The notes under the pieces: model-generated
The model's input: the letters and a program-made list of their open reading frames with translations, nothing else
Told to the model about the DNA's origin: nothing
Database searches by the model: none
NCBI RefSeq assembly: GCF_014489535.1
Contig: NZ_CP060783.1
Coordinates: forward strand, 2,542,001 to 2,606,000
Reading direction: 5' to 3'
Length of the DNA stretch: 64,000 nt
DNA from: Diaphorobacter aerolatus
GTDB lineage: Bacteria > Pseudomonadota > Gammaproteobacteria > Burkholderiales > Burkholderiaceae_C
Made by a program: the position numbers and the translations under genes
Shown here: positions 7,881-49,581 of the stretch, piece by piece
How the letters are laid out: each line of letters opens with the position of its first letter
Numbering within the stretch: position 1 is the stretch's first letter

Positions 7881-8870
7881 ATGGATGCGATTAATTCTCA
7901 TCCACAAATGACCAGAACTGCCTCCCGCCTCGTCTCGCGCCGCGATCTGCTGGCGCTTGCGTCGGCTTCTTTCCTGATGCCCGGTGCCAGCGCCTCGCCT
8001 GACATGAACACCGCCGCATCTCCCGCCGCCGCTGAGCTTCGCAATGCGCCCCCGGTGCGGCTCGCGCACAGCCATCAGCTCGACATGCGGGACCCCGCGA
8101 GCGGCCATGTGCGCCGCATCTTCGTGCAGGTGCCGGACACGCCCGCGCCCGCTGGCGGCTATCCGGTGCTGTATTTGCTGGATGCCAACGCGAGTTTCGC
8201 CGTGGCCGCGCAGCTCGCGCGCAACGGCGGCAATCGCCCCGCCGCGCTGCGCAAGGACCCGCTGATGGTCGTGGGCATTGGCTATCCCGTCGACGACACC
8301 ATGGACCAGCAGGCACGCCGGCGCGACTACACGCCACCGCCAGCCACCGAAGCGGGCACCGGAGGTGCGGACGAGTTTCTGGATTTCATCGAAAAGCAGT
8401 TGCAACCCGCACTGCGCTCCGCGTGGAGCATCGACCCCGCGCGCCAGACGCTGTTCGGCCATTCGCTTGGCGGCTTGCTCACGGTGCATGCGCTCGTCAC
8501 CCGCAATCGGCTGTTCACGCGCTATGCGGCGGCCAGCCCGTCGCTGTGGTGGAACGGCGCGCAAGCGCTGCAAACCATCGAGCAATGGATTGCCAACGGC
8601 GCGGCTACCGCATCACCCAAGGTGTGGATTCAATTGCGCGTGGGCTCGCGTGAGCGCGCAAGGCGCCACGAAAATGATCCGGCGCGCGCCGCCAGGGCCA
8701 CGGAGCGCCGCATGAACGAACATGTAGAGGCCTTGGCCGCGCGCCTCTCGGGCTTGAACCGCCCGCAGTTGCAGGTGGACTACAGGGAACTGCCGGGCAT
8801 CGACCACGGCGGCACGCTGGCACCGGCCCTGATCGAAGCCATCGCCTTGGCTCAGCGCGACGCCATGTAG
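7881..8870 (+). CDS. Exported alpha/beta-hydrolase of the esterase D type
   Basis: A 329-residue serine hydrolase related to enterochelin-esterase/IroE-like proteins. The nucleophile elbow GHSLGG is near residue 193 and the likely catalytic His is in DHGGTL near 312. The N-terminus resembles a twin-arginine signal (SRRDLLALASASFLM), suggesting periplasmic location. The substrate is not evident; siderophore esters and other carboxylic esters are both possible. A GTG two codons upstream (7875) and an ATG at 7908 are alternative starts. It follows xth by 27 bp and converges with the phosphotransferase gene, with which its 3' end overlaps. Confidence 0.8.
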   Translation: MDAINSHPQMTRTASRLVSRRDLLALASASFLMPGASASPDMNTAASPAAAELRNAPPVRLAHSHQLDMRDPASGHVRRIFVQVPDTPAPAGGYPVLYLLDANASFAVAAQLARNGGNRPAALRKDPLMVVGIGYPVDDTMDQQARRRDYTPPPATEAGTGGADEFLDFIEKQLQPALRSAWSIDPARQTLFGHSLGGLLTVHALVTRNRLFTRYAAASPSLWWNGAQALQTIEQWIANGAATASPKVWIQLRVGSRERARRHENDPARAARATERRMNEHVEALAARLSGLNRPQLQVDYRELPGIDHGGTLAPALIEAIALAQRDAM

Positions 8871-9888
8871 CGCTGCGCGGCCTCCCAGCCCAGATCGGCC
8901 AGCGGACCGGCCTTGCGGCCCGTCTCCACCGCGTCTTCGGCCGCTGCCGTTCCTTCGGCCGCGCGCTGCGCGATGCCGTGCAGGATCGCGGCCATGCGGA
9001 ACAGGTTGTAGGCGATGTAGAAGTCCCAATGTCCGGCGGCATCGCGGCCCGTGGCTTCGCCGTACCACTGCACGTATTGCGCTTCGCTGGGAATGCCGAG
9101 CGCGGCGAGATCGAGCCCGCCGATGCCGCGCCACAGATCGTGCGGAATGCGCCAGCCCATGCACTGGTACGCCAGATCGGCCAGCGGATGACCCAGCGTG
9201 GACAGCTCCCAGTCGAGCACGCCGATCACCCGCGCCTCGCTCGGGTGGAAGATCAGGTTGTCGAGCCGGTAGTCACCATGCACCAGCGTGGTCTCGTCGC
9301 CTTCGGGCAGATGCGCGGGCAGCCATTCCATGAGCCGGTGCATGGATGCATTCACGGGCAGCGTCGATTCCCTGCACTGGCGCGACCAGCGCGCGATCTG
9401 GCGGCTGACGTAGTTGCCTTCCTTGCCGTAGTCACCCAGACCCACGGCCTTGTGGTCCACCGCGTGCAGCGCGGCGATCACGCGGTTCATCTCGCGGTAG
9501 AGCGCCGTGCGTTCGGCGTTGGTCATGCCGGGCAGCGCCTGGTCCATGAACACGCGCCCCTCTAAAAACTCCATCACGAAGAACGGCGTGCCGATGAGGC
9601 TGGCATCCTCGCAATAGTCGAGCATGCGCGGCACCGGAACGCCGGTGTTCGCCAGCGCCTGCATCACGCGAAATTCGCGGTCGATGGCATGTGCCGACGC
9701 GATCAGCGTTCCCGGCGGCTTCTTGCGCAGAACGTAGTGGCGATTCTTGCCCGCATCGATGCGAAACGTGGGATTCGATTGCCCGCCCGCGAGCACGCTC
9801 ACCTTGACCGGCTCGGCGTCCGCAAGGCCTTTGTCGCGCAGGTAGGTTTCAAGCGCGTCGAGGGCAGTGGAGTGGCGACCGCGTTCAT
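8852..9888 (-). CDS. Phosphotransferase family (APH-like) protein, N-terminus frameshifted
   Basis: An aminoglycoside-phosphotransferase-fold protein of the type encoded beside acyl-CoA dehydrogenases (ACAD10/FadE36-like), of uncertain substrate. The kinase-like core shows LAGGQSNPTF at the start, the catalytic loop LVHGDYRLDN and the metal-binding IGVLDWE. The uninterrupted frame begins at 9802 with a GTG, but an ATG at 9888 overlapping the SDR stop codon, plus one extra C near 9869-9870, gives the expected N-terminus continuing into ALDALETYLRDKG. I therefore give the full span. It is the last gene of a three-gene operon with 4-bp overlaps, and its 3' end overlaps the convergent esterase gene by 19 bp. 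Confidence 0.8.
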
Positions 9889-10670
9889 AGGCCGCTCACC
9901 AGATGCGCGCCGTCCACGGCCACGGTTGCGCCCGACATCGCAGCGCCCGCGTCGGACGCCAGCAGCAGTAGCGGACCGTCGAGATCGCCAAGCTCACTGA
10001 AGCGGCGGCTCGGAATCCGCATGCGCAGCTTCTCCCCCAGCTCGCTCGTGAGGAAGTCGCGGTTCAGGTCGGTGATCACGTAGCCGGGCAGCAGGGCATT
10101 CACGCGAATGCCGTAGCGCGCAAGCTCCAGCGCCATGGCCTTGGTCGCCTGGATCACGCCTGCCTTGGAGATCGCATACGGTGCAACGCCGCCGCCCACG
10201 CGCTCGCCCAGAATCGAGGCCACGTTCACGATGGCACCGCCCTTCTTCGCGGCCACCATGCGGCGCGCGCCCTCGGTGGCGACGAGCCAGTTGCCCTTGA
10301 GGTTGGTGCCGATCACCTGGTCGAAATCGTCCTCGGTCTGATCGAGCAAGGCGCGCGTGACCGTGACACCCGCGTTGTTGATGATCACGTCGGGCACGGC
10401 CCATTCGCCGATGGCATCGAAGCCGCTCCTGACGCTTTGCGCGCTGCTCACGTCGAGCGAAAAAGCACGCGCCTGTCCACCGGCGTTCACGATCTCGTCC
10501 ACCACGGACTGCAACTTGTCGCCGCGCCGCGCCGCCACGGCCACCCTGGCACCGTGGGCCGCGAGCATCTTCGCGAAGTGGGTGCCAAGCCCGCTCGATG
10601 CGCCGGTCACGAGCGCGAGTCGGCCCCTGAGACTGAATCTGTCGATGACATTGCTGGTGCTGCTACTCAT
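9885..10670 (-). CDS. SDR family oxidoreductase
   Basis: A 261-residue NAD(P)-dependent short-chain dehydrogenase. Residues about 18-24 carry the cofactor-binding TGASSGLG, followed by NNAG near 95, a catalytic Ser in VNVASILGE, and the YAISK motif (Tyr and Lys) near 172. The ATG at 10670 overlaps the stop codon of the acyl-CoA dehydrogenase gene (ATGA), and its own stop overlaps the start of the phosphotransferase gene in the same way, so the three are translationally coupled. The context suggests a 3-hydroxyacyl-CoA or similar substrate in fatty-acid or branched acyl degradation, which is inference. Confidence 0.88.
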   Translation of the reverse strand: MSSSTSNVIDRFSLRGRLALVTGASSGLGTHFAKMLAAHGARVAVAARRGDKLQSVVDEIVNAGGQARAFSLDVSSAQSVRSGFDAIGEWAVPDVIINNAGVTVTRALLDQTEDDFDQVIGTNLKGNWLVATEGARRMVAAKKGGAIVNVASILGERVGGGVAPYAISKAGVIQATKAMALELARYGIRVNALLPGYVITDLNRDFLTSELGEKLRMRIPSRRFSELGDLDGPLLLLASDAGAAMSGATVAVDGAHLVSGL

Positions 10671-11860
10671 GCCGATGCCTCCGCCGCCGCATGTGCCTTC
10701 TCGGCCATGTGCACCAGCTTGCGCGCCATGCTCCAGCGGTGCACCTCGCTCGGGCCGTCGTAGATGCGGAAGGCGCGCATGTCGCTGAAGATGCGCATCA
10801 CCGGGGTTTCGCCCGTCACGCCCTGACCGCCCAGCATCTGCACGCTGCGGTCGACCACGCGCCATTCGGCCTCGGAGCAGATCACCTTGGCGCGGCTCGA
10901 TTCATAGTTGCCCTTCTCGCCCTGATCGAGCAGCCACGCCGTGTGCCAGATGTTCAGGCGCGCGGTGTGCAGGTCCATGTCGTTGTCGGCCAGCATGAAG
11001 CCCACGCCTTCGTGCTCGGCCAGCGGCTTGCCGAAGGCCTGGCGCTTGCGCGTGTACTCGAGCGCGGTTTCATGCGCCCGGCGTGCCTGACCAAGCCAGC
11101 GCATGCAGTGCGTGAGGCGCGCGGGCGCGAGCCGCACCTGCGCATAGCGAAAGCCCTTGCCGACCTCGCCGAGCACGTCGCTTGCGGGCACGCGCAGATT
11201 GGTGAAACGCAGCACGCCATGGCCGCCGGTGAAGCACGAATCCATCGCGTCCATGCTGCGTTCGAGAACGATCTCGGGCCGGTCCATGTCCGAGAGGAAC
11301 ATGGTCGCCGAGCCGTCCTCCATGCGCGCCATGATGATCACGTAGTCCGCGCCTTCCGCGCCGGTGATGAACCATTTCACGCCGTTGATCAGGTAGTCGT
11401 CCCCGTCCCTGGTGGCGGTGGTTGCGAGCATCGACGGGTCGGCACCTGCACCGGGCGAAGGCTCGGTCATCGCAAAGCATGAGCGCGTTTTGCCTTCGAC
11501 CTGCGGACGCAGCCAGCGCTCCTTCTGCGCGTGCGTCGCAACCTCCTCCATCAGGTGGATGTTGCCCTCGTCGGGCGCATGGATGTTCATCGCCGTGGGG
11601 CCGAGCCACGAGTAGCCGGCCTCCTCGAAGACCACGGCCTTTTCGATGTGCGTGAGGCCGAGGCCGCCCATGTCCCTGGATGCGTGCGGCGTGAGCAGCC
11701 CGGCGGCGCGTGCGCGCTGCACCAGTTCGCGGCGCAATTCCTCGCTCGGTCCGTGCGCGGACTGGCGCGGGTCGCGCTCCATGGGGATCACCTGCTCGGC
11801 GATGAAGCGCCGCGTCCTGCCTTGCAGTTCGCGCAACTCGGGGGAAAGCGAAAAGTCCAT
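10667..11860 (-). CDS. Acyl-CoA dehydrogenase family protein
   Basis: A 397-residue FAD-dependent enzyme of acyl-CoA beta-oxidation. It shows the family signatures FAMTEPSPGAGADPSM (FAD/substrate loop, about residues 132-147), WFITGAEGADY, and the C-terminal MLGGQGVTGETPVMRIFSD stretch typical of the FadE/ACAD10-11-like group. It is the first gene of an operon with an SDR and a phosphotransferase, and is divergent from a GntR/FadR-type regulator. Substrate chain length cannot be read from sequence. Confidence 0.9.
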   Translation of the reverse strand: MDFSLSPELRELQGRTRRFIAEQVIPMERDPRQSAHGPSEELRRELVQRARAAGLLTPHASRDMGGLGLTHIEKAVVFEEAGYSWLGPTAMNIHAPDEGNIHLMEEVATHAQKERWLRPQVEGKTRSCFAMTEPSPGAGADPSMLATTATRDGDDYLINGVKWFITGAEGADYVIIMARMEDGSATMFLSDMDRPEIVLERSMDAMDSCFTGGHGVLRFTNLRVPASDVLGEVGKGFRYAQVRLAPARLTHCMRWLGQARRAHETALEYTRKRQAFGKPLAEHEGVGFMLADNDMDLHTARLNIWHTAWLLDQGEKGNYESSRAKVICSEAEWRVVDRSVQMLGGQGVTGETPVMRIFSDMRAFRIYDGPSEVHRWSMARKLVHMAEKAHAAAEASA

Positions 11861-11936
11861 GGAGTCTCCTGTTGAAACCGGGGTGGCAAAGAATCAATCA
11901 ACCGGCATCTTGCAACGAATTCGTCGGACCGTGCAG

Positions 11937-11949
11937 ATTGTTGAACAAT
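11937..11949. promoter_or_regulatory. Palindromic candidate operator for the GntR regulator
   Basis: ATTGTT-G-AACAAT is a perfect 6-1-6 palindrome in the 186-bp region between the divergent acyl-CoA dehydrogenase and GntR genes. It lies 77 bp upstream of the former and 98 bp upstream of the latter. FadR/FCD regulators usually bind short palindromes of this size, so it is the best candidate site for control of both genes. Confidence 0.5.
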
Positions 11950-12046
11950 ATTGAAGCACAATTACCTGCGCCTGAGCTATCCTGTTGGCGACATCCGTCG
12001 GCGTATTCCGCGCTGACCTCCCTCCACCCACCCTCTTCACGTTCTC

Positions 12047-12733
12047 ATGGCGCGCATCCTGCTGACCGAGCCATCCAGCCCCCATTCCGGCAGCGCGCCC
12101 GACGCCTCGCGCAGCGCCTCCGGCACGGTGTTCTACGGCATCATGAATGGTCTCGAAAGCCAGCAATTCGTGCCCGGACAGCGGCTGGTCGAGGTCGATC
12201 TGGCCGCGCAATATGGCGTGAGCCGCAATTCCGTGCGCGAGGCATTGCAGCGCCTGGCGGCGGAAGGCGTGGTGGAACTCTCGCGCAACAAGGGCGCGGC
12301 GATCCGCTCGCTGAGCCTTGCTCAGACGCTCGAAGTGCTGGACGTTGCAGAGCGCATGACCGGCCTGCTCGCCCTGAGCGCCGCCAAGGGCATCGCCGCA
12401 GGTCGGCCACGCAAGGCTATCGAGCAGGCGCTGCGCGAACTCTCCAGGGCCAATGACGCGCACGACGGCGACGCCTTCGCGCGCGCGCGCCGCGGCCTCT
12501 ACCGTGCGCTGCTCGAGGCCGGGGGCAGCCAGGAATTGCGCCGCTTGTTTCCGTCGATCCAGATGCCCATCGTCTATGCCCAGCACCGCCCCGCCACGTT
12601 GCAGAAGGTACGCATGCGCGACTATCTGGCGATGAGTGAATCCATCCTCGCAGGCAATGCGCAGGCCGCCGACAAGGCAGGCATGGCGCACGTGCAGAAC
12701 GTGCGCGCCGCGATCCTGAGCAAATCCGCGTAG
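12047..12733 (+). CDS. GntR family transcriptional regulator (FCD domain)
   Basis: A 228-residue DNA-binding regulator. The winged helix-turn-helix covers about residues 26-92, with PGQRLVEVDLAAQYGVSRNS followed by VREALQRLAAEGVV, diagnostic of GntR. The C-terminal part (about 100-220) is all helical, as in the FCD effector-binding domain. It is divergent from the acyl-CoA dehydrogenase operon and probably represses it in the absence of an acyl-CoA or organic acid ligand; this is inference from position. Confidence 0.85.
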   Translation: MARILLTEPSSPHSGSAPDASRSASGTVFYGIMNGLESQQFVPGQRLVEVDLAAQYGVSRNSVREALQRLAAEGVVELSRNKGAAIRSLSLAQTLEVLDVAERMTGLLALSAAKGIAAGRPRKAIEQALRELSRANDAHDGDAFARARRGLYRALLEAGGSQELRRLFPSIQMPIVYAQHRPATLQKVRMRDYLAMSESILAGNAQAADKAGMAHVQNVRAAILSKSA

Positions 12734-12737
12734 TCCG

Positions 12738-14149
12738 TCAACGCCGCGCGGCGAGCAGTTCCTTTTTCACCGCATCCTGAAAACGCGGATCCAGCATCGC
12801 CGCCACGTTGCAGCGCGACCATGGCGACGGCGCGGCGGGGTCGAGGTGGAACACGCGACCCGGCGCCATCTTCACGCCGTGCGGCAGCAGCGCCTCGGCC
12901 CATTGCAGCGAGTCTTCCACGCCTGGAAACCTCACCCACAGATACAGCGTCTGCGCATTGCGCGCGAACACTTCGCAGCCTTGCGCGTCGAGCCATGATT
13001 GCGCCTGCTGCGTCGCAGCGCCCAGCTTCTGGCGCAGCTTCACGAGATGGCGTTCGTAGCGCCCCTCGCGCAGCATCACATCGACCATGCGTTCGCAGTA
13101 TTCCGATCCGCTCACGTGGATCAACGCCTTCAGATCGGCCAGATCATTGGCCAGCGCGGCGCTGCACGCGATATAGCCCACGCGCAGAGCGGCCGAAAAC
13201 GACTTGGAAAAACTACCGATGTAGAGCGTGCGCTCCAGCTGATCGAGCGTGGACAGCCGCACCGACGAGGGCGGCTTGAAATCGGCGAACGGGTCGTCTT
13301 CGACGAACACCAGATTGTGCTTCTCCGCGAGCTGCAGCAGCCGGTACGCCTTGGGTGCGCCGAGGTCCGAGCCGGTCGGGTTGTGCGCCAGCGATTGGGT
13401 GAAGAACAGCCGTGGCCGTTCGGTGGTGAGGATGTTCTCCAGCGCGGCGAGATCGGGTCCGTCGGCCTGACGCGGCACGCCGATCACGCGCGCCCCCGCG
13501 AGCTTGAGCTTGCCGAACAGCAGGTAGTAGCCCGGCTCGTCGACCAGCACGGTCGCGCCCGGTGGAACGAAATAGCGGATCACCAGATCGAGAGCATCAT
13601 TCGCGCCCTGCGTGAGAACCAGTTGATGCGGCGTCACCGCGAGCCCCAGCACCCCGAGCTTGCGCACCAGCGAATCGCGCAGCGGCGCGTAGCCAAAGCG
13701 ATTGCCGTAGCGAAACAACGAACCCAGCCCGGTGCGCACGACCTTCTGGTGGTAGCGATCCATGCGCATGTCGGCCAGCCATTCGATGGGCGGAAAACCG
13801 TCGCCCACGGCGGCAACCTCGGGCTGGGTGATGAGCTGCTCGCGCGCCAGCCAGACGGTATCCATGGCGCGCACGAGCTGGCCGCTGTCCTCGTCGGCGG
13901 CCCGGGGTTTGCGCACCTGCCCGGCTGAAACATAGAAGCCCGAGCCGCGCCGGGCTCGATGAGCCCGCGCGAGACCAGCAGGTCGAATGCCGATACCACC
14001 GTGTTCTTGGCGTAGCGATGCAGTTGCGCCAGCTCGCGCAGCGACGGCAGTTTATCGCCGGGCTGGTACACGCCGTCGGCGATCTGCTGGCCGATGAGGT
14101 CGGCCAGTTTTTGCGCAATCGGCGCGGCGCGTCTTGGGGTCTCCGTCAT
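12738..14149 (-). pseudogene. MocR-type regulator (GntR HTH plus aminotransferase domain), frameshifted
   Basis: The N-terminal part, starting at ATG 14149, is a GntR winged helix (YQPGDKLPSLRELAQ, KNTVVSAFDLL). The rest, in another frame, is a fold-type-I aminotransferase domain with the PLP lysine in IGSFSKSFSAALRVG and the aspartate motif VFVEDDPFADF. The junction lies at the GGG at 13952-13954 (CCC on the coding strand); one more C gives RGLIEP followed by RRGSGFYVSAG, the expected linker, and a protein of about 470 residues. MocR proteins use PLP as effector or cofactor while regulating a neighbouring gene. This one is divergent from HMG-CoA reductase and probably controls it. As read the two domains are uncoupled. 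Confidence 0.85.
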
Positions 14150-14195
14150 GGGTTCGCGTCTCCCGATTGCTGCACTGCAACGACACTGTTTGCCC

Positions 14196-14236
14196 AAACT
14201 GTACCTTTAATCGACGGTACAGTTTGAATACAGTTT
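14196..14236. promoter_or_regulatory. Inverted and direct repeat array between MocR and HMG-CoA reductase genes
   Basis: AAACTGTACC (14196-14205) and its exact complement GGTACAGTTT (14216-14225) are separated by 10 bp, and a further ACAGTTT follows at 14230-14236 as a direct repeat 11 bp after the one inside the right arm. MocR regulators typically bind paired or tandem half-sites of this kind. The array sits 47 bp upstream of the MocR start and 64 bp upstream of the reductase start, so it could serve both. Confidence 0.65.
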
Positions 14237-14299
14237 GTCCAACCGTTTGAAATTGCACCGCGTCGGCGCAACCCTCCTTTTCCGTACTGGACTCCGCAC

Positions 14300-15589
14300 A
14301 TGGCCATCGATTCCCGCCTCCCCAACTTCCGCGCCCTCAACCCCGCCGAGCGTTGGGACTACATCGCCAGGGCCTGCAAGCTGAGTGACGAAGAGCGTGC
14401 GCTGATCAGCAGTCCCGGTGCGCTGCCACACGCGCTCGCCGACGGCATGATCGAGAACGTGATCGGCACCTTCGAACTGCCGATCGGCGTGGCCGGCAAC
14501 TTCCAGATCAACGGCCGCGATGTGCTGGTGCCGCTGGCGGTCGAGGAGCCCTCGATCATCGCCGCCGCATCCTTCATGGCAAAGCTGGCGCGTGACGATG
14601 GCGGCTTCCAGACGTCGAGCACCTTGCCGCTGATGCGCGCACAGGTGCAGGTCCTGGGTGTGAACGATCCCTACGGCGCACGCATCGCGCTGTTCAAGGC
14701 GCGTGACGAAATCCTCGCGCTCGCCAACAGCCGCGACAAGGTGTTGATCGGGCTGGGTGGCGGCTGCAAGGACATTGAAGTGCACGTGTTCCCAAGCACG
14801 CCACGCGGCCCGATGGTGGTGCTGCACCTGATTGTCGACGTGCGCGACGCGATGGGTGCAAACACCGTGAATACCATGGCCGAATCGATCTCACCGCTGA
14901 TCGAACAGCTCACCGGCGGATCGGTGCGCCTGCGCATCCTCTCGAACCTCGCCGACCTGCGCCTGGCCCGCGCCCGCGTGCGCCTGACGCCCGGGACGCT
15001 GACCACCAGGGAGCGCAGCGGCGCCGAGATCATCGAAGGCATTCTGGACGCCTACACCTTCGCCGCCATCGACCCGTACCGCGCCGCAACCCACAACAAA
15101 GGCATCATGAACGGCATCGATCCGGTCATCGTCGCCACCGGCAACGACTGGCGCGCGGTCGAAGCCGGAGCGCACGCCTATGCCTGCCGCAATGGCCACT
15201 ACACCTCGCTCACCACCTGGGAGAAGGACAACAGCGGCGCGCTGGTCGGCACCATCGAGCTGCCGATGCCCGTGGGTCTGGTCGGCGGCGCGACCAAGAC
15301 CCATCCGCTGGCGCGTCTGGCGCTCAAGATCATGGATGTCAGGTCCGCACAGGAACTCGGTGAAATCGCTGCCGCCGTGGGCCTGGCGCAGAACCTCGGC
15401 GCGCTGCGCGCACTGGCCACCGAAGGCATCCAGCGCGGCCACATGGCGCTGCACGCGCGCAACATTGCGCTGGTCGCGGGAGCCGTGGGTGAAGAAGTCG
15501 AGCAGGTCGCCAAGCGCCTCGCCGCCGAACACGATGTGCGCACCGACCGCGCGCTCGAAGTGCTCGCCGAGTTGCGCGGCAAGAAGTAA
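14300..15589 (+). CDS. mvaA: Hydroxymethylglutaryl-CoA reductase, degradative (class II)
   Basis: Interconverts mevalonate and HMG-CoA using NAD(P)(H); class II enzymes in Pseudomonas mevalonii and Delftia act in mevalonate catabolism. The 429-residue protein matches class II in length and signatures: catalytic Glu in VEEPSIIAA (about residue 83), Lys in HNKGIMNG (about 267), Asp in [11 protein letters not shown] (about 283), and the C-terminal His in [10 protein letters not shown]. It is not accompanied by an HMG-CoA lyase gene here. The divergent MocR-type gene and the operator array suggest ligand-induced expression. The symbol follows the P. mevalonii name. Confidence 0.92.
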
Positions 15590-15683
15590 ATCGCGGGCCT
15601 TCCTTTTCCGCCCAAAAGCCGCGAGCACTGAAGCCCGCGCGCGGCTCGCATCCGCCGCGCGCGCAATGCGGGACAATCACGCC

Positions 15684-15980: not shown

Positions 15981-16424
15981 TCACCAGCAGGAGGCTCCGG
16001 TCAGCCGCGATCCACCGCCATCGACATTGCTCTGCGCGCCGGTGTGGGCCAGCACGTAGGTATAGCACTTCAGGTCCTTGGTCTGCGAGCCCTGCGGTAC
16101 GGCCTTGACGGAATAGCTCTTTGCATCATCGATGAAGTCGACCGACAACTGGTAGTAGCTGCTGCCTCCCGAGCTTTGCACGACGGCGGGCAGCGCTGCG
16201 TAGCCAAGCTCCGCAGCCGTCTTGGCGTAGCGGTTGTGGATGCTGTAAAAGCGCTCCTGCCGCCCTGCCACCTCGAGCACGGCGTTCTTGGCGTCGGTGC
16301 GGCGCGCGCGCCTCATGTATTCGCTGTAGCTTGGAAACGCCAGCGCGGCGAGGATGGCGATGCAGGCCACGGTGATCATCAATTCGACAAGCGTGAATCC
16401 GTTCATCCGTTTCATTTCGCACAT
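15981..16424 (-). CDS. pilE: Type IV pilin-like protein PilE
   Basis: A 147-residue minor pilin or pseudopilin. The class III signal is MKRMNG followed by FTLVELMITVACIAILAALA, giving prepilin peptidase cleavage after Gly and the +5 Glu. A helical shaft and a C-terminal domain with two cysteines (CYTYV and the terminal CW) follow. It is the last gene of the fimT-pilVWX-pilY1-pilE cluster and starts 15 bp after pilY1. The start at 16424 (MCEMKRMNG) is used; 16415 is an alternative that gives a shorter, more typical leader. Confidence 0.85.
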   Translation of the reverse strand: MCEMKRMNGFTLVELMITVACIAILAALAFPSYSEYMRRARRTDAKNAVLEVAGRQERFYSIHNRYAKTAAELGYAALPAVVQSSGGSSYYQLSVDFIDDAKSYSVKAVPQGSQTKDLKCYTYVLAHTGAQSNVDGGGSRLTGASCW

Positions 16425-16438
16425 GGTCGGGTTCCCGT

Positions 16439-19400
16439 TCAACGCAATTGAATCCACGTGAGGCGGCCACCGCCCGATATGGACGGCTGGATCCTGGTGA
16501 ACTTCTGTTCGCCGTCCCGGGCTCCGCTCCATATCACCGGGCCTCCTGGTGTCTCCTGCCGATTCACGCTGCCGACCTGATTGAGCATGAGTGCGGCGAG
16601 CGGCGCGCCGGTCGCCGTCGTCCCGTCGGTGATGTAGGGACGATCGAGCGATCCCGTATCGGGGTTGAGCGTCAGGAGAAAGCCCGTCGTCTCTCCGGCC
16701 GTGCAGGTGGCGGGGTCGATTGCCGAATTGCCCGGAATGATCGTATTGAGCGTCAACATCCCGTCGTTCAGCGTCGGGTTGTAGATGACCTGTTCATACC
16801 ACGTGCCTTTGTCGCTGCTCGTTGTCGTACCCGGCAAGGCAATTCGCCAGCCCACATGATTGTTGGCCGTGGATTCGCAACGGTTGCTGCCAACCCAGCA
16901 GACGGGGTTGCTGCTGACGGTGCGCCCCTGCGTGGTGTATCCACTGCCGATGACCGTGACGGCGTTGAGCGTTTGCGTCTGCAGCCCCTCGCCCGTGGTG
17001 TTGCGCGACGCCGGGAGTGACGCGTAGGCGGTTGTGCTTCTGGCATTCCAGGCTTCGAGATTCCAGTCCCACAGGCCGTAGAGGTACTGGGCTCCCGCAG
17101 CGGGAACCGCGCCGCCGCTCGTGGTGGCGGGCAGTAGCAGACCGGTTCCGAAATTGATGATCAATCGCGGTGACGCGATGCCCGGCTGTTTCACGCGGCT
17201 CACCGTGGGCTGCGTCGAGATCGGCAGACCGGTCGCCGCAAGCGGCTTGCTGTCTGCCTTCCAGTCTGCCGCATTGCTGCTGCTCAGGTCGAAACGCCAG
17301 AGGTTGCCCTTGAGGTCGCCCGCGTACACATAGTCCGTGACCTTGTCGCCATCGAGATCGGCGGACGTGAGTTCGATGATGCCGTTCTTGCCGACTCCGG
17401 CAGCCGGTGCTGCCGCGCCCGAATCGAGATAACGGAAGCTGGTCGCGCCCGATGCGGAATCCACCGTCATCACGAAGATTCCAGCCTTGCCGCTCGCGCT
17501 GTTGCGGCCATTGCCGAACAGCACGGCCCAATGACCGTTGTGAAGACGCCGCACGATCGGCTTGCCGGAAACACTGCCCAGATGCTTGCCGCACTGGGTA
17601 TCGCCGATACAGGTGATGGTGCTGGAAGTCCAGTCGCCCACGACGACTGCCTCGGCACTGGCATCACTGCTGGAAAAGGCGGACGGATCGGTGACGTCGA
17701 GCACGTAGAACGCGCCCTGCGCGGTGTCGGTCAGATTGCCGATGACGCCGCCCTTGTTGCCGCCATTGCCCAGCCCGCCCGCGAGCCAGGTGTGCCACGC
17801 GCCCCGGTAATACAGATCGCCGGTTCCGGGCGAGCCGTCCACATAGGCATTGTGTGCGTACTTCTCGTCGCTGAAATTTGCGGGGTCGGTCACGCTGCTC
17901 ACACCGAACGAAGCGAGCGCCGCTCCAGGCATGTAGGCGATGAGTTCACGCCCGTCGTTGGCCGAGAGCGGATCGAACTTGCCGCCCCGGTAGGCTCCCG
18001 CGCGAAAGCCATGCAGAAAGCCATCGTTGGCGCCGACATACACCACGTTGGTGCGCGATGCCTTGCTCGCCGCGAACGCCGAATAGGACGTATCGCCCTC
18101 GGGCATGGCCGCATCGGGATACAACGCATCCACCCACACCTGCCGATACGACTGGTTGGGCGGGCCTACCCACGCGGGATTCGAACTCTGAATGTCGCCC
18201 AGTACCCCGGTGCGTTTGCGATAGGTCTGGTGGGTGCTGGTGGCCTGGGTTTCGTAGGTCCGATCTCCAGCGAGATAGTTCAGACGCGAGGCGTCCTGCG
18301 CCGCACCGGGCACCACGTTGCTCAGGCTCAGCGCCTTCTGCTGGGCGTCGCCGAGGCGGTCCCAGCGCAAGGGAATTCCGGCCGCGCCATTCCACGTCAT
18401 GAGGTTGCGCTGCGCGGGGGATTGCGCCGTCACCAAAGCCCCGCCCGTCGAGGCGCAGACACCGCCGGTCAACACGCAACTGGCATTCCAGTTCGCCATC
18501 GGTGCCACCGAGACTCGGTCGGTGGCCGGGTTGTAGACCATGTTCTTCGCGATGAACTCTCCCCACCAGTTTTCCGTGTGGAAGTACGAAAAGAAGACCT
18601 GATCGCCGGTTTCGAGCTTGGTCGATGGATCGGTATTGGCCGACGAGGTCGTCGTCGACGCGCTCAACTGCTCGGCGCGAAAGCAACTGATCTCATGCAC
18701 GTTGCTGCCGGTTCCGGTGCTGGCCGCAAAGCCGAAGTAAAACTTGGACGGCAGGGTTTCGTCAGCCGCGAGAATGGATTTGTCGCGCACCACATCCACA
18801 AAATTGCCGCCTTTGACGCTGTAGGCAAGACTGATCTCGCCCTTGCGGGAAAGCCGCAGGTCATAGGTGATCGCGTTGGCGTCGGTGCGTCGGGGCGCTG
18901 CGATACCCTGCTGGTTCGCGATCTTCGCAGGCACCACCGAGCTTCCGAGCCACCGGTTGTTGGGAACGCTGATGAGCTTGCCACCCGCGCTGACCGTGCC
19001 CTTGGTGCACGCATCCTTGAGCGCCGTCCGCTTGGCGGTCGGAGGCATCGCGTTGGGGAAGGCGGGCTTGGTCTGCGCATTGGCATTCAGATAGGTCCAA
19101 TTGACGTTACCCCGGCCCCGCAACACGACGTTGTTGGGCTTGGGCGCTTCGCCGGTGTTGCCCACCTTGTTGCTCGCATTGAAGTTGCCGAACTCGTCGA
19201 TTCCAAGCCCGATGAAGCCGCCGACGAGCCCTCCCGGATCGGCGGGAATATTGTCGGCATCGGACGAACACCCGTAGCCGAGCGAAGCGCCCGTGGCCCC
19301 GAGTCCGGGCAATTTGGTTGCGCTCAACTCGCCGATCAGTTGCTGTACCTGGTCCCCGTCGATCAGGAAAAAACTCAGTCCGTCCGCGCCGTTGCCATCC

Positions 19401-19893
19401 TTGGAATATGTGTGCCCGACGTTGTTGACCCAGCCGTTGTAGGCATTGCCGCCGTAGGTATAGCTGGTGAAGGTCACGCGCAGGCCTTCATCGCTGGGCA
19501 GCGTCTGTCTGGAGAACACGGCACCGCGTTGGTTGTTGCCGTTGACGCCCTCCATCTGGACATCGCCATTGGTCAGGCGCAGCGCACCACTTCCGACATC
19601 GTCGGGCAATCGACCGCCGGGCTTTGCGCCGCCCACGTGCGTCTTGCCGCTGTAGTAGCTCAAACCCACGCATCGGGGAATCAAACCGCTTCCATTGCCT
19701 GCGGTCAGGCAGGCGCCATCCACCGCGTACCACTGCGAGGAACTCGCGCCATTGAGCGGATCGTTGATGGTCAGCGCCGCAAACGCAGGCGGCGCGCACA
19801 CCGCCATCGTGAGCAGCATCGTCGGCGCAGCCCGTCGTTTGCTGCTGCGAACCGGCGTTGGCGGGGGATGTCTTTCTTTTTTTTCTGCGTCAT
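16439..19893 (-). CDS. pilY1: Type IV pilus tip-associated protein PilY1, N-terminus frameshifted
   Basis: A large secreted pilus-biogenesis factor and adhesin. The uninterrupted frame starts at 19819 (1126 residues) inside the signal peptide (TMLLTMAVCAPPAFAA). The proper ATG is likely at 19893, with one base missing in the T8 run at 19877-19884; restoring it gives a basic n-region MTQKKKERH. A lectin-like N-terminal part precedes the C-terminal beta-propeller (PilC/PilY1 domain), with VYVGANDGFLHGF near residue 591 and the calcium-loop sequence DLDGDKVTDYVYAGDLKGN near 821, counted from 19819. It lies between pilX and pilE, the usual order in Burkholderiales. Confidence 0.9.
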
Positions 19894-19931
19894 GGCGTTT
19901 TCCAGACTGAGGATGGCCCGGGCTCCGGGCT

Positions 19932-20546
19932 TTAGTTGCTCAGGTCCACGACCCGCGAGCCCGTGAGTGCGAACGTGCTCTGCACGACCGAGACGGTGTC
20001 CTCCCGCCCGCCTTTCGCGCTGGCGGTCACCTGATAGATCGGCGACCCGCCCGATGCGCCGCCTACGCCGAGGTAGGCAATGTGCAGGCTCGGCAAGGCC
20101 GCATAGTTGATGTCGCCGCTGCTTGAGAGGCCCCTATCCGCATCGACGACGAAGCTGGTGCCCGGCTGGTAGTCGAAGCGCGTGTCCCAAGGCACGCTCG
20201 TGGCAGACGCCAGCGCCGCATTGCAGACCTTCAGCGACGACGCGTCCACGATGGTGACGACGCCCGCACAGTTCTGCGGCACGGACGCGTGGCCTTCGCG
20301 AAGCCACCATTCGCCGTACTGCAAGGCGCTTTGCGCGGCTTCGTCGGCGCGCTGTTTGTCCAGGGTATTGCCGGCCGCCATTTCCTGCTGACCGAATCCG
20401 CGAAACATCGTGATGGCCAGCACACCGATCACGAGCAGCATCATCAGCGTGGTGACCAGCACCGCACCTTCATGCCGCGTGCGCCCGCGCGCAAGGCGCG
20501 CCCCAAGGCACCGATGAAGAGGTTTCGCCGCCGGATTTTTCATCAT
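19932..20546 (-). CDS. pilX: Pilus assembly protein PilX
   Basis: A 204-residue minor pilin. Its N-terminal helix (GAVLVTTLMMLLVIGVLAIT, about residues 27-46) follows a basic stretch, as in PilX proteins, which often have a less canonical prepilin site. A PilX-type motif RADEAAQSALQYGEWWLR lies at about residues 66-83. The gene overlaps the end of pilW by 4 bp and precedes pilY1. It is thought to help prime pilus assembly with the other minor pilins and PilY1. Confidence 0.85.
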   Translation of the reverse strand: MMKNPAAKPLHRCLGARLARGRTRHEGAVLVTTLMMLLVIGVLAITMFRGFGQQEMAAGNTLDKQRADEAAQSALQYGEWWLREGHASVPQNCAGVVTIVDASSLKVCNAALASATSVPWDTRFDYQPGTSFVVDADRGLSSSGDINYAALPSLHIAYLGVGGASGGSPIYQVTASAKGGREDTVSVVQSTFALTGSRVVDLSN

Positions 20547-21283
20547 GTGTGATTCATCAATGGAATGATGTGGACCAGTACCGGCAGGCTAGAGGCCGTG
20601 CCACCCGACGCCGGGCGCGTCACCGGATCGCGAAACGTCAACCGGGCCCGCACGGCATGCACGCCGGACCACATCGCCGCCGTCGTGAGCGCGCTGGCGG
20701 GCAGGTAGGTGTCGGGCTGCCCATCGCCATCGGTGTCAACGCTGTAGCGCAGCTCCATGCGCGCGATGCCGCTGACCAGCACCACCGGTGCTTGTCCATC
20801 ACCCGACGAACAGGTCAGCTCGCCCTGTGCGTTGACGGTCAGCGTGTTCAGCATCACGCTTTTTGCCGCGCCGGTGTTAACGCCGCCCAGACAATCCACG
20901 AGCGCATCATGTGGCTGGGTTTCGAATCGAATGGAGATCGTATCGGACGCCCCCGATGCGCCGTCCGATCCCGTGATGAACTGCCCGGCGGCGAAGCTCC
21001 CTGACGAGCCAAACACCGACGCACGCGTCGTGGTGAGCGGATCGACGAAATAACCGGCGCTGCGGATCGCATTGCTCAGACTGTTGATCGCCACGCGGCG
21101 CGATTTTTGCAGGTCCGCAAGTCCGCTCTGATTGTTGAAGCTCGTCTTCGCGTTCAGGTACAGGGTCGTCAAACCCGCGAGCATGAACAGGCCGATGGCC
21201 AGGCCCACCATCAGTTCGAGCAGGGTCATGCCGGCGCTGTGGTGAAAGCGATTGCGGTATCGGTGGAGTCCGGACAGGTGCAT
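20543..21283 (-). CDS. pilW: Pilus assembly protein PilW
   Basis: A 246-residue minor pilin with a prepilin-type N-terminus: the processing site before MTLLELMVGLAIGLFMLAGL with Glu at +5 (about residues 19-38). The longer C-terminal domain has two cysteines (DCLGG and TCSSG). It overlaps pilX by 4 bp and begins 8 bp after the end of pilV, so the cluster is one operon. PilW is needed with PilV, PilX and FimT-type proteins to initiate type IV pili. Confidence 0.85.
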   Translation of the reverse strand: MHLSGLHRYRNRFHHSAGMTLLELMVGLAIGLFMLAGLTTLYLNAKTSFNNQSGLADLQKSRRVAINSLSNAIRSAGYFVDPLTTTRASVFGSSGSFAAGQFITGSDGASGASDTISIRFETQPHDALVDCLGGVNTGAAKSVMLNTLTVNAQGELTCSSGDGQAPVVLVSGIARMELRYSVDTDGDGQPDTYLPASALTTAAMWSGVHAVRARLTFRDPVTRPASGGTASSLPVLVHIIPLMNHT

Positions 21284-21291
21284 ATGCGCGC

Positions 21292-21894
21292 TCAGATGCT
21301 GACGTGGGTGATGAAGCTACGCGGACTGTCGGAAGCCGTGGCCGTTGCGGCACTGGTCGATGGGTCGGCGCTGCCGTTGCCGGAGACATAGCGCTCGTGC
21401 CAACGGACGGTGACCGTGCAGCGCGTCAGCCGCTGGGTGGTCTGCGTGCACTGGATCGAGCCGCTCGGATTCGGCAACGCAGCATCGAGTGAGCCGGCCC
21501 ACTCCACCAGATCGTTGCCGACCAGTTCTTCGGGCGAGCATTGCGGTCTCGCCACCACGCCCGTAGCATCGCAATTCAGCCCATTCGCCACGCCAAGCGA
21601 TGAACCTGCGTCGATCTTCCCCTGCTTGAGCGTGATGCTGGCGGTTCTGCCTTCACCGTCGCGCCAGTAGGCGGCGTTGCTTTGGATGATCGACGCCAGC
21701 GAGGCGGCCTGCAGCGCCGCGACGCTACGCGCATTCGCCGTGCTGCTGCTGGCCATGGCGTGTGCCATCATTTTCAGCGGCCCAAGCATGCCGATGGCCA
21801 CCACCAACAGCGCGATGCCGGACTCAAGCAGCGTGAAGCCGCCTTCACGACCGCGCGCGGCCATCGCGGCTTTCCCGATCTTTCGCGTGCTCAT
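21292..21894 (-). CDS. pilV: Type IV pilus modification protein PilV
   Basis: A 200-residue minor pilin. A basic leader precedes the cleavage site at GREGG before FTLLESGIALLVVAIGMLG, with Glu at +5. The C-terminal region contains paired cysteines (NCDATG, PQCSPEE, IQCTQTTQRLTRCTV). The ATG at 21894 forms an ATGA overlap with the fimT stop codon and is chosen for that; an in-frame ATG at 21900 is an alternative. Confidence 0.83.
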   Translation of the reverse strand: MSTRKIGKAAMAARGREGGFTLLESGIALLVVAIGMLGPLKMMAHAMASSSTANARSVAALQAASLASIIQSNAAYWRDGEGRTASITLKQGKIDAGSSLGVANGLNCDATGVVARPQCSPEELVGNDLVEWAGSLDAALPNPSGSIQCTQTTQRLTRCTVTVRWHERYVSGNGSADPSTSAATATASDSPRSFITHVSI

Positions 21895-22442
21895 GCGCAT
21901 CCCGTTGCTCCTGCCTTGAGAACGGTCTCGCGCCCCGCTCGGTTGATGAGCGCGCAACGCGTTGCGTTGGCGTCGATGGGCGATGTGTGCAACGTGAACG
22001 TGACGCTCGCGCTCAGATTGGAGGCCAGCCCCGTGCGCCCCATGGTCAGCGACGAACGTCCGTCACCCGCCTGAAAAGTATCCCCGCCGGTCAAGGCGGG
22101 CTGCACGCGAAGAATCGCCTCGCCGCCATCCACCGAGCCGTCCGCATCGTCGTCCGCAAACACGATCCAGCCTTTCGCCCAGTCGGCGCCGCCCGATCCC
22201 TGACAAGCCGTTCCCTCGCTCGCGCACAGACTGACGGCAGATCCGCGACGACGCGCTTCGCTGCGTGCATATTCGAGATCGAGACTGAATCGCTTCACCG
22301 CAGCCGTTGCGCGATTGACGCGCCAGAGGCTCGCAAAGGAAGGCGCCGCAACGACCAGCAAGATCGCCAATACGCTCAGAGTCACGAGGATTTCGGTCAG
22401 CGTAAAACCGATGGCGCGAGACCGGCGCGGCCTTCGAAACAT
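21891..22442 (-). CDS. fimT: GspH/FimT family pseudopilin
   Basis: A 183-residue minor pilin. The leader MFRRPRRSRAIG precedes FTLTEILVTLSVLAILLVVA, with a prepilin site and +5 Glu. The C-terminal domain is of the GspH type, with conserved ARSEARRRGSAVSLCAS (about residues 60-76) and a WIVFADDDADG segment. It is the first gene of the pilus cluster; the promoter should lie between 22443 and about 22700 on the minus strand, but I cannot point to a clear box. The open frame extends to 22493; the ATG at 22442 gives the normal leader length. Confidence 0.83.
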   Translation of the reverse strand: MFRRPRRSRAIGFTLTEILVTLSVLAILLVVAAPSFASLWRVNRATAAVKRFSLDLEYARSEARRRGSAVSLCASEGTACQGSGGADWAKGWIVFADDDADGSVDGGEAILRVQPALTGGDTFQAGDGRSSLTMGRTGLASNLSASVTFTLHTSPIDANATRCALINRAGRETVLKAGATGCA

Positions 22443-22767
22443 CCCCGATGGCCCTCGCTTGGCGGTGAATATGTCAACGGGAGAGGACAACACGAAAGTG
22501 GCTTCAGTGACTGAGAATCAAAAGTGGGCCTCAGACAATACCTGCTGTCACAAAGCAAATTTTGATACTGACGACGCAGCTTTCAGGGTTTGCCAAACGC
22601 GCGCACTTCGTTTGAACTACATCAGGGAATTTTTGTATGCAGGTGGTGATGAGCGACGGGTTCTGACTGGATTTGCCAGTGCGCATTCCTGATGTTTTCA
22701 AACTCCAGGTCACCCCCCATACTTGAACCGGCCAACAGACCGTCCCGACCACGCGGTGAACACCGCT

Positions 22768-34000: not shown

Positions 34001-35286
34001 TTAGTTCCGGCCCGCCGCCTTCTCCGGCCAGCACCAAAGCGAAATTGCGTAGATCACGGCGCCCGCGACCAGCGCCAGGGATGCGCATTCAAGGGCGCGA
34101 TCGAATCCCCTGCCATCCGCAGAATGCTGGAGCAGCCATGCCACCAGCGGCGGTCCCGCAATCTGACCGATGCTGTATGTGCCGGTCACCAGCCCGGCAA
34201 AACTGTCTGCTGACGCGGGCCATTCGCGGCGCGCCTCCTGCAACGCAAAGAAAGAGATCGCGGTGAAGGGCAGTCCCACAAGCAGGCTGCTGACGAGAAA
34301 ACCGATGGTGGTGGGCATCCACAGCGTCAGGGCCACGCCCGCAGCCTGGATCAGGTAGGCCACCAACAACAGCCAGCGGCGCGACCAGCGCACCGGCAGG
34401 CGCGTGCTGATCAAGGTGCCGACGAGCGCGCCCGCGCCAGCAATCGGCCAGAAGAGATCCGCCCAGCCGGTATTGCCTGGCAGGACGGTGCGCGCAATCA
34501 CCGGCAGAAAGGTCGCGGTGATGATGTACCCGAAACCCGACAGGCCGTAAGCCAGGGCATGCAACACGCGCGTGGGTACGGGTTGGGCGCGCATGCTCGC
34601 GGCCTGCGCCTGCGTGGGTTTTGGTGCGCCCGTGCTCAAAGTCAGGGCCGCCGGGCCGCGTATCACGGGCCAGATGAACACGCACAGCAACGCGGCCAGC
34701 ACGCTGAATGCCACCCACCCACTGCGTGACTGCCAATGCGCGGCCACCATCACGCTGGTCATCAGACCCGTGATGAGAATGCCCGAGCCAGGACCCCCGA
34801 AAACAAGTCCCGCGAGTTCGGGCCGCCCGAGTGCCGAAAGCCGCACCATGCACCACGAGGCCGTGCCGAGAAACGTGATGCCGCTCGCCACGCCCGCTGC
34901 AAAACGCAGCAGCGGCCAGGCATCCTGAATCGGAAACGCCATCGCCAACGTGAGGATCACCGTGGCAGACAGGCCCCATTTCGCCAGACGCGCCGGGTGC
35001 CATTTCGCGTAGATCGCAGGTGACAGCCACGGAAGCGCCATGCCGATGAGCGCACCGACGAGATAGCCCAGATAGTTGGCGGTGGCGAGCCAGCTTCCCG
35101 TGCGAGGTCGATCACTCCGTCGTGCAGCATCATGGGCAGCAGCGGCGTGAACGCGAAACGACCAATCCCCATCGCCACGGCCAGCGACGCCAGCCCCGCC
35201 AGCCCGACGATCCATGGTCTGACGGAGCCCGAGGGCGGTTGCTGCGCGGGGGTGGCTGTTTCCGGGGTGGAGGAATAGGTGCTCAT
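34001..35286 (-). CDS. YbfB/YjiJ-type MFS transporter, N-terminus frameshifted
   Basis: Inner-membrane protein of about 428 residues with 12 hydrophobic segments, of the YbfB/YjiJ major facilitator group (unknown substrate). The N-terminus from ATG 35286 carries the group signature AMGIGRFAFTPLLPMM. The frame breaks at the CCC at 35097-35099; one extra G on the coding strand joins VIDLAR to GSWLATANYLGYLVG. The frame open from 35215 lacks the first helix. It is divergent from a LysR gene, which probably regulates it. Confidence 0.8.
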
Positions 35287-35310
35287 GGCGCGTGGATAAA
35301 TCTTTTTTTT

Positions 35311-48485: not shown

Positions 48486-49581
48486 TCACTCGACGACAAC
48501 GAACGGCACGCGCGGCGCGACCGCGCACATCAATTCGTAGCCGATGGTTCCCCCGCGCGCGCGACCTCGTCGATGGGCAGCACGGTGCCGTTGGCCGCCT
48601 TGCCCCAGAGCGTGACCTCCGAGCCCATGTGCGCGCCCGCCACGTCCGTGATGTCCACCGTGAGCATGTCCATGCTCACGCGGCCCACGAGCCGCGTGCG
48701 CACGCCGTCGACCAGCACCGGCGTGCCGGTTCCGCAATGGCGCGGATAGCCGTCGGCGTAGCCGCAACTGACCACGCCGATCGTCATCGGGCCTTCGGCG
48801 GTGAAGGTCGAGCCGTAGCCGATCGTGTCGCCCTTTTGCAGGTGCTGAATGGCGATCAGCCCGCCCGTCAGCGTCATCGTCGGCTGCAATCCCCAGTCGG
48901 CGATGGTGCGCTCGGGATAGTCCGGCGCGCTGCCGTAGAGCACGATGCCGGCGCGCACCCAGTCGCCGCGCACCTCGGCCTCGCTGCCGCGCAACAGGGT
49001 CGCCGCGCTGTTGCAGATAGTGCGCTCGCCGGGCAGGTCGCCGGTGGTTTCCAGAAATGCCTTGAGTTGATGGTGAATGCCGCGCGGGCCGTCGGCATCG
49101 CTGAAATGCGTGATGAAACCGACCTCGTCGACCTGGGGCAGTGCGTTCAGGCGCGCCCAGGCGGCGCGGTATCGCTCGGGGTGAAGCCAAGGCGGTTCAT
49201 GCCCGAGTTCATCTTGAGGAACACATGGTGCGGCGTCTGGGTCTTGTGCGCGGCCAGCCAGTCGATCTGTTCGTCGCAGTGCACGGCATGCCAGAGGCCG
49301 AGACGAGAGCAGATCTCCAGATCGCGGGGCTCGAACGCGCCTTCGAGCAACAGGATCGGGCCGCGCCAACCGAGCTGGCGCACGCGCTCGGCCTCGGCGA
49401 AGTCCAGCATCGCCAGGCCATCCGCGGCGCGCAGCGCGTCAAATACGCGTTCAATGCCATGGCCATAGGCATTGGCCTTGACTACCGCCCAGACCTTGGC
49501 ATCGACCGCCGCCTCACGCGCTCGCGACAAATTATGTTGCACTGCAGCGGTGTGGATGGTCGCTTGGATCGGACGAGGCAT
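48486..49581 (-). pseudogene. alr: Alanine racemase, two frameshifts
   Basis: PLP enzyme that makes D-alanine for peptidoglycan. The N-terminal frame has the PLP lysine motif AVVKANAYGHG (about residues 32-42) and [13 protein letters not shown]. The middle frame has [21 protein letters not shown] and [13 protein letters not shown] with the catalytic Tyr region. The final frame reads [18 protein letters not shown]. Breaks lie at GGGG 49178-49181 and CCCCC 48550-48554; one base added in each restores about 365 residues. Alanine racemase is normally needed for growth, so sequence error is the likelier cause. Confidence 0.88.

Follow-up and report, generated by a model that had tools for sequence, protein, structure and literature searches.

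A conserved inverted repeat suggests a MocR-type regulator of mevalonate catabolism genes in Diaphorobacter aerolatus and its relatives

Introduction

Which genes are controlled by a MocR-type regulator whose gene lies back to back with that of a class II HMG-CoA reductase, and which compound could such a regulator sense? This question is raised by a window of 64,000 nucleotides, i.e., the whole stretch of DNA that was analyzed, from the genome of Diaphorobacter aerolatus, a single contig of 4.95 Mb. Between the two divergent genes, the window contains an inverted repeat (14195-14226) and, 3' of it, a second copy of TACAGTTTG (14229-14237). According to the main text of a survey, the operators of MocR regulators contain between two and four boxes, in inverted and direct orientation and spaced by approximately one or more helical turns, and the core of most boxes is TGT or TGG (PMC5320631). 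The array in the window agrees with this description. The words mevalon, hmg, and hydroxymethylglutaryl do not occur in that main text; this regulator group may be included in the supplementary tables. A MocR regulator of mevalonate genes is not named among the paper matches listed, in a collection that covers a minority of the subscription journals.

Architecture of the intergenic array

The repeat had been predicted to be a perfect one of the form 10-10-10. It is indeed perfect, but each arm is one base longer: CAAACTGTACC and GGTACAGTTTG are 100% complementary over 11 bases and are separated by a spacer of 10 bases, giving the form 11-10-11. The window contains four separate sites with perfect arms of at least 11 bases and a spacer of 4-16 bases, i.e., the array and those near positions 8, 54945, and 57446, and such repeats are hence not unique to this spot. 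When the window was modeled by six first-order Markov copies, none had such a repeat; for the intergenic stretch of 144 bases, one Markov copy in 3000 did. Over its 20 core bases, the array site is the sole match in the genome at up to three mismatches. Conservation, however, is stronger evidence for the array than these chance statistics.

A footprint was obtained by stacking, without gaps, 21 divergent loci, each with at least 16 matches to the 20 core bases. Eight of these loci came from the pattern search, and two (L029 and L030) are near copies; because the pattern chose loci, selection has biased the core columns but not the flanks. Box A, which played no part in the selection, is near invariant. 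Its reading as a reverse half-site at a distance of 11 bases was dropped, as the footprint revealed an ACTGT in direct orientation, at a distance of 13 bases from the ACTGT in box B. Further upstream, a block with the sequence TGCTGCACTGC is kept, which is not explained by the half-site of the regulator (Table 1).

The copy of TACAGTTTG that follows the repeat had been regarded as an extra direct half-site. The copy is present, but a half-site role appears less likely. In the 21 loci, its first six bases read TAnAnT, i.e., the positions typical of a -10 hexamer are kept, whereas the two positions that define the half-site vary. Box C shows the opposite pattern, with the C kept in 21 and the G in 20 of the loci and the sixth base in only 13. 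The TACAGT in this copy, therefore, more probably serves the reductase promoter as its -10 hexamer than the regulator as a half-site. The conserved T's of the -35-like hexamer have no symmetric counterpart in the repeat, and TTTAAT and TAnAnT together may form a weak promoter for the reductase gene. Since a consensus scan for sigma-70 promoters gave nothing reaching the threshold in the stretch between the MocR and reductase genes, it is conservation that suggests where these two hexamers lie.

Table 1. Features of the MocR-reductase region, with positions in the window.
Feature	Position	Strand	Evidence or remark
MocR-type regulator gene (GntR wHTH and aminotransferase class I/II domain)	12738..14150	-	Frame broken at ~13945-13960
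TGCTGCACTGC block	14168..14178		Footprint columns -28 to -18; seen in a majority of the 21 loci; 5' region of MocR gene
Box A, ACTGT	14185..14189	+	Direct orientation to box B; A19 C21 T21 G21 T21 of 21 loci
Box B, CAAACTGTACC, left arm of inverted repeat	14195..14205	+	Repeat search, footprint, operator search
Putative weak -35-like TTTAAT	14206..14211	+	17 bases before -10-like hexamer; T in 21/21 at first base, T in 19/21 at third base
Box C, GGTACAGTTTG, right arm of inverted repeat	14216..14226	-	Repeat search, footprint, operator search
TACAGT, start of the TACAGTTTG copy at 14229-14237	14229..14234	+	More likely reductase -10 hexamer; T20 A21 C13 A20 G14 T21 of 21 loci
Class II (degradative type) HMG-CoA reductase gene	14300..15589	+	TIGR00532 ('degradative'), 420.6 bits, cut-off 259.95
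69 bases where same-genus relative L033 has ~2.4 kb	15590..15658		blastn junction

Conservation of the operator

A lack of half-site conservation in relatives had been named as one outcome that would refute the original proposal; instead, the half-sites are conserved. When the operator was searched near the cluster as AACTGTACC-N10-GGTACAG with at most one mismatch, at least one copy was present in all 21 genomes of the family that encode a MocR of at least 58% identity. It is located between the MocR and reductase genes in 15 of them, upstream of livK in four (G003, G072, G136, and G142, the latter with livK on a separate contig of 3.1 kb), between the MocR and dctP genes in one (G129), and upstream of both livK and a gene for an AMP-binding ligase in one (G080). 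Two genomes (G069 and G175) have a second operator upstream of livK. Four divergent loci (L038, L046, L048, and L049) lack the full repeat between the MocR and reductase genes and have it at livK instead. In the locus of G080 (L039), genes for GMC-type oxidoreductases lie between the operator-bearing promoters of the LIV transporter and the AMP-binding ligase.

In total, the pattern gave 44 matches in 24 genomes vs. six for the backward pattern, with both strands searched and palindromic sites thus counted twice; three of the genomes (G330, G335, and G295) were found by the pattern and are, hence, not independent. Two more sites with one mismatch are located elsewhere (G099 and G330). The exact 22-base pattern was found at five loci in a genome collection of 84,980 species, and all five lie between MocR and reductase genes. 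A 17-base form, with at most one mismatch, was present in nine of 399 genomes of the order, and in seven of these it lies between the two genes; the matches in G458 and G500 have neither a MocR nor a reductase match nearby. The backward control of this form matched in two genomes of the order (G277 and G305).

Outside the family, CTGTACC or GGTACAG occurs, at other spacings, in six of eight intergenic stretches (L172, L173, L175, L176, L177, and L179) and is absent from the other two (L170 and L174). When the eight stretches were replaced by Markov copies in 2000 rounds, no stretch had either word in 1677 rounds, one stretch did in 297, two did in 25, and three did in a single round. Both words are found together in four of the eight stretches, vs. 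at most one in the Markov copies.

Pairing of the regulator with the reductase

The solved structures nearest to the reductase of the window are 6dio and 1qax. The name of the model TIGR00532 is in itself no proof of degradation, since the fused protein of a biosynthetic cluster (L178) also scores above its cut-off. Among 200 genomes of the family, the model matched in 24, with 22 over the cut-off; 23 genomes were counted as encoding a real reductase: G003, with a reductase split into two pieces, was added, and G090, with a weak match (E 1.4e-8), was excluded. When the MocR of C. testosteroni was used as a query in 200 family genomes, 21 had a protein of at least 58% identity, followed by 49% (G188), 43% (G047), and at most 40%. 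All 21 MocR genomes fall within the 23 reductase genomes (Fisher p 1.8e-26, uncorrected for kinship). The two genes are divergent neighbors in 19 of the 21; in G129, the MocR gene is divergent from a TRAP-reductase operon, and in G080, it lies ~2.5 kb downstream of the reductase gene. Two genomes have a reductase without a close MocR, i.e., G047, whose MocR of 43% identity is divergent from a TRAP-reductase operon, and G116, where a CoA-transferase gene is found beside the reductase gene. Conversely, G188, with a MocR of 49% identity, has no reductase match. In L106 (8167-15288), a 49% identical MocR, in a genome without a reductase match, is encoded beside TRAP-like, AMP-ligase-like, and GST-like genes; perhaps, this cluster represents a sister pathway.

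The pairing extends beyond the family. A search in 398 genomes of the phylum yielded 15 reductases over the cut-off, of which 10 were outside the family, and in eight of these 10 loci, a divergent MocR gene, the product of which is 39-52% identical to the query, adjoins the reductase gene or its operon. Because this range overlaps in part with the 36-40% identity of unlinked MocRs of the family, the kinship of the MocRs outside the family is suggested by their linkage and by a tree with long branches.

The other two loci outside the family are without a MocR gene. One (L178) is a biosynthetic cluster, in which the reductase is fused to mevalonate kinase and a decarboxylase is also encoded; no MocR match was found in the stretch covered. 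This biosynthetic cluster with the reductase-mevalonate kinase fusion (L178:6984-11363) is from a proteobacterium. The other (L171) resembles the MocR-linked clusters in combining a reductase and a lyase but differs from them in having a GAF/PucR-type gene upstream, a CoA-transferase gene, and no MocR match within 18 kb. The stretch L171:6190-12552 contains, behind the GAF/PucR-type gene, genes for the reductase, a family III CoA-transferase, an enoyl-CoA hydratase-like protein (by eye), and the lyase; perhaps, the GAF/PucR-type gene encodes another control on the same step.

Taken as a regulator of mevalonate use, the MocR has fared well in one respect and less completely in another: its tie to mevalonate genes is strongly supported by comparison of sequences, with conserved pairing, operator, and co-occurrence, whereas the wider reading is supported in part.

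Gene clusters around the reductase

The genes that accompany the reductase in relatives give an impression of the pathway; in the counts that follow, some loci are too short to display the neighbors. A gene for a TctA-family permease (PF01970) is located 3' of the reductase gene in nine of the 26 loci compared, mostly behind a small gene without Pfam match, which is TctB-like by place and size only; both are present in L103, L104, and L105. In L050, the next gene encodes HMG-CoA lyase (NF004283, 451.7 bits). Other loci contain genes for LivK, LivH, LivMG, LivF, GMC-type oxidoreductases, and an AMP-binding ligase or, alternatively, for DctP and DctM. The TRAP binding protein of L045 matches, among others, solved binding proteins of the lactate and ketoacid types.

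Thus, reductase, HMG-CoA lyase, and a transporter are seen together in relatives. The gene rows of three loci, i.e., reductase, LivK, LivH, LivMG, LivF, and lyase (L179), reductase, DctP, DctM, and lyase (L174), and reductase, lyase, TctB-like protein, and TctA (L172), suggest that the clusters serve the breakdown of mevalonate; with a lyase and one of three transporter types next door, this function is probable.

Proposed regulation of the reductase promoter

Altogether, we consider it probable, and with good confidence, that the MocR is a dedicated regulator of the repressor type, which would act through the inverted repeat on a gene set for mevalonate catabolism and would be released by a molecule of the pathway. 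This explanation builds on the pairing, the conserved operator, and the operator's tracking of transporter, ligase, and reductase promoters, all three of which are borne out by comparison. The gene set would comprise HMG-CoA lyase, a transporter of the TctA, TRAP, or LIV type, and the reductase, which would convert mevalonate into HMG-CoA. A dimer of the MocR is predicted to bind AAACTGTACC-N10-GGTACAGTTT. In the reductase promoter, the -35 region would lie between the two arms of this repeat, the right one of which would end just before the -10 box, and, with this placement, repression of the reductase operon appears the most likely outcome; since the genes are divergent, the MocR gene itself would perhaps be repressed as well. 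Binding of an effector, for which mevalonate or HMG-CoA is our guess, in the aminotransferase-like domain would then release repression.

Alternatively, the MocR could be an activator that bends or loops the DNA of the repeat and thereby aids RNA polymerase at a weak -35 element. Some known MocRs do activate, and the weakness of the -35-like element, together with the lack of a strong promoter in the scan, would fit such a role. However, the center of the repeat is expected at approximately -30 from the putative start, over the -35 element and the spacer between -35 and -10, which is the usual place for a repressor, and activation is, therefore, a possible mode of action but the less favored one.

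State of the system in D. aerolatus

In D. aerolatus itself, the reading frame of the MocR gene is broken, with the GntR domain in one frame and the aminotransferase domain in another, whilst the MocR query gave a single unbroken match in each of 28 other loci, some of them ended by the end of the contig or locus. The segment of ~2.4 kb that is found in the same-genus relative and is missing here (Table 1) carries the genes for a small protein and TctA. A TctA query found no relative in the genome of D. aerolatus, while it matched in four of the four relatives that served as a positive control. Mevalonate kinase had no match in this genome either. The HMG-CoA lyase model gave four genes over its cut-off in the genome, all outside the window, and when the operon-type lyase of L050 was searched in 11 genomes, the best match in D. 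aerolatus was 54% identical and located elsewhere.

Thus, the MocR gene could be a pseudogene and the system a relic in this strain, decaying after the loss of the transporter. The broken frame, the missing segment 3' of the reductase gene, and the absence of a TctA relative are all in line with this idea. Nevertheless, two other genes of the window are broken as well, i.e., an alanine racemase-like gene (by eye; 48500-49580, minus strand), which is split into two frames, and an MFS-like gene (by eye; 34001-35300). An assembly error is, therefore, likely in the MocR frame also, and gene decay as the cause of the frameshift was dropped as the leading explanation when the other broken genes were seen. 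Furthermore, the operator and the reductase gene are intact. A relic is, on balance, unlikely. The system may nonetheless be only partly functional here, given the loss of the transporter gene and a MocR frame that is either broken or misassembled.

Two further gene groups lie on either side of the divergent pair. At 8852-12733, genes for an APH-family protein, an SDR-like protein (by eye), and an acyl-CoA dehydrogenase are accompanied by a divergent gene for a GntR-FCD regulator; in L028, L032, and L033, this set likewise adjoins the MocR gene. On the other side (15981-22493, minus strand), type IV pilin-like minor genes and a gene for a long PilY1-like protein (both by eye) are located.

The MocR protein and its possible effector

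The start codon of the MocR gene is most likely at 14150. The gene of the window matches PF00392 (39.3 bits, cut-off 27) in one frame and PF00155 (120.7 bits) in another; in relatives, a single frame encodes both domains. The MocR of C. testosteroni is 79% identical to that of the window over 397 aligned positions. A prediction of its structure, based on an alignment of four rows, had a mean pLDDT of 46.4 and was discarded. Like other members of the MocR subfamily, e.g., GabR, TauR, PdxR, and EnuR/EhuR, the protein combines a wHTH with an aminotransferase-like domain, and it appears to be served by boxes with a TGT core in inverted and direct orientation. Unlike in those members, the targets would be genes for mevalonate catabolism, and no NCBIfam cut-off was reached: the C. 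testosteroni protein scored below those of the PdxR, EhuR, YczR, PtsJ, GabR, and rhizopine MocR models, the best being PdxR with 229.8 vs. 320. In a tree of 42 MocRs, the 34 that are linked to a reductase form two supported groups, of 27 and seven rows, and seven of the eight unlinked ones are found on one long branch; L077, from G188, is nested inside the larger linked group. Given the long-branch warning and the narrow sample of unlinked proteins, a single origin of the linked MocRs is left unsupported by this tree.

The linked MocRs also deviate from the others at the cofactor site. At a position set via alignment to an aminotransferase, where a tyrosine is presumably a cofactor-site residue as it is in aminotransferases, the 34 linked proteins, the broken copy of the window being excluded from all these counts, have Leu (23), Phe (10), or Met (1), whereas the unlinked ones have Tyr in seven cases and Leu in one. 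The PLP lysine and the C-terminal arginine are each present in 32 of the 34, with gaps in the other two, and an aspartate and an asparagine in all 34. To our knowledge, the effectors described for MocR regulators are PLP or amino compounds, and mevalonate lacks an amino group. Tentatively, and at somewhat less than even chance, this branch of MocRs may sense a hydroxy acid that has no such group, i.e., mevalonate or HMG-CoA; it would have lost the tyrosine and kept PLP as a structural or auxiliary ligand.

The MocR might also control the cluster while sensing PLP or an amino compound, e.g., leucine, rather than mevalonate, with the reductase serving another end. The breakdown of leucine also yields HMG-CoA, some of the clusters contain a LIV-type ABC transporter, and the residues for PLP are kept, the lysine and the arginine in 32 of 32 readable rows. 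Yet, the tyrosine found in seven of eight other MocRs is replaced in every linked one, and TctA and TRAP systems take the place of the LIV system in other genomes, which makes such sensing improbable. Least credible of all is that the array would serve only the autoregulation of the MocR gene, with the neighbor being incidental: although the repeat also lies within the upstream region of that gene, the operator is found before livK, away from the MocR gene, in G080 (there also before the ligase gene), G003, G072, G136, and G142, and the pairing persists across families.

Relation to known systems and significance

The mvaAB operon of P. mevalonii includes a lyase gene. A degradative, NAD-using HMG-CoA reductase and growth on mevalonate are described for this organism in a passage of PMC13412983, and the clusters discussed here share the degradative type of reductase with it. 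They differ in their regulator: MvaT, not a MocR, figures in titles in the reference list of PMC3985676 as an H-NS family member and as the activator of mvaAB operon transcription, and these titles agree with the earlier statement that the mva regulator of P. mevalonii is of a different type.

A MocR gene beside its target is ordinary in kind; as far as the searched papers go, the target and the breadth of the association are new. If the proposed regulation is correct, a dedicated regulator would exist for mevalonate breakdown in Pseudomonadota, and the conserved operator would make its regulon predictable from genomes. A natural mevalonate-responsive switch of this kind would be usable as a biosensor in isoprenoid engineering. 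Furthermore, the reach of the MocR subfamily would be extended to a substrate that lacks an amino group, raising the question of what its enzyme-like domain senses.
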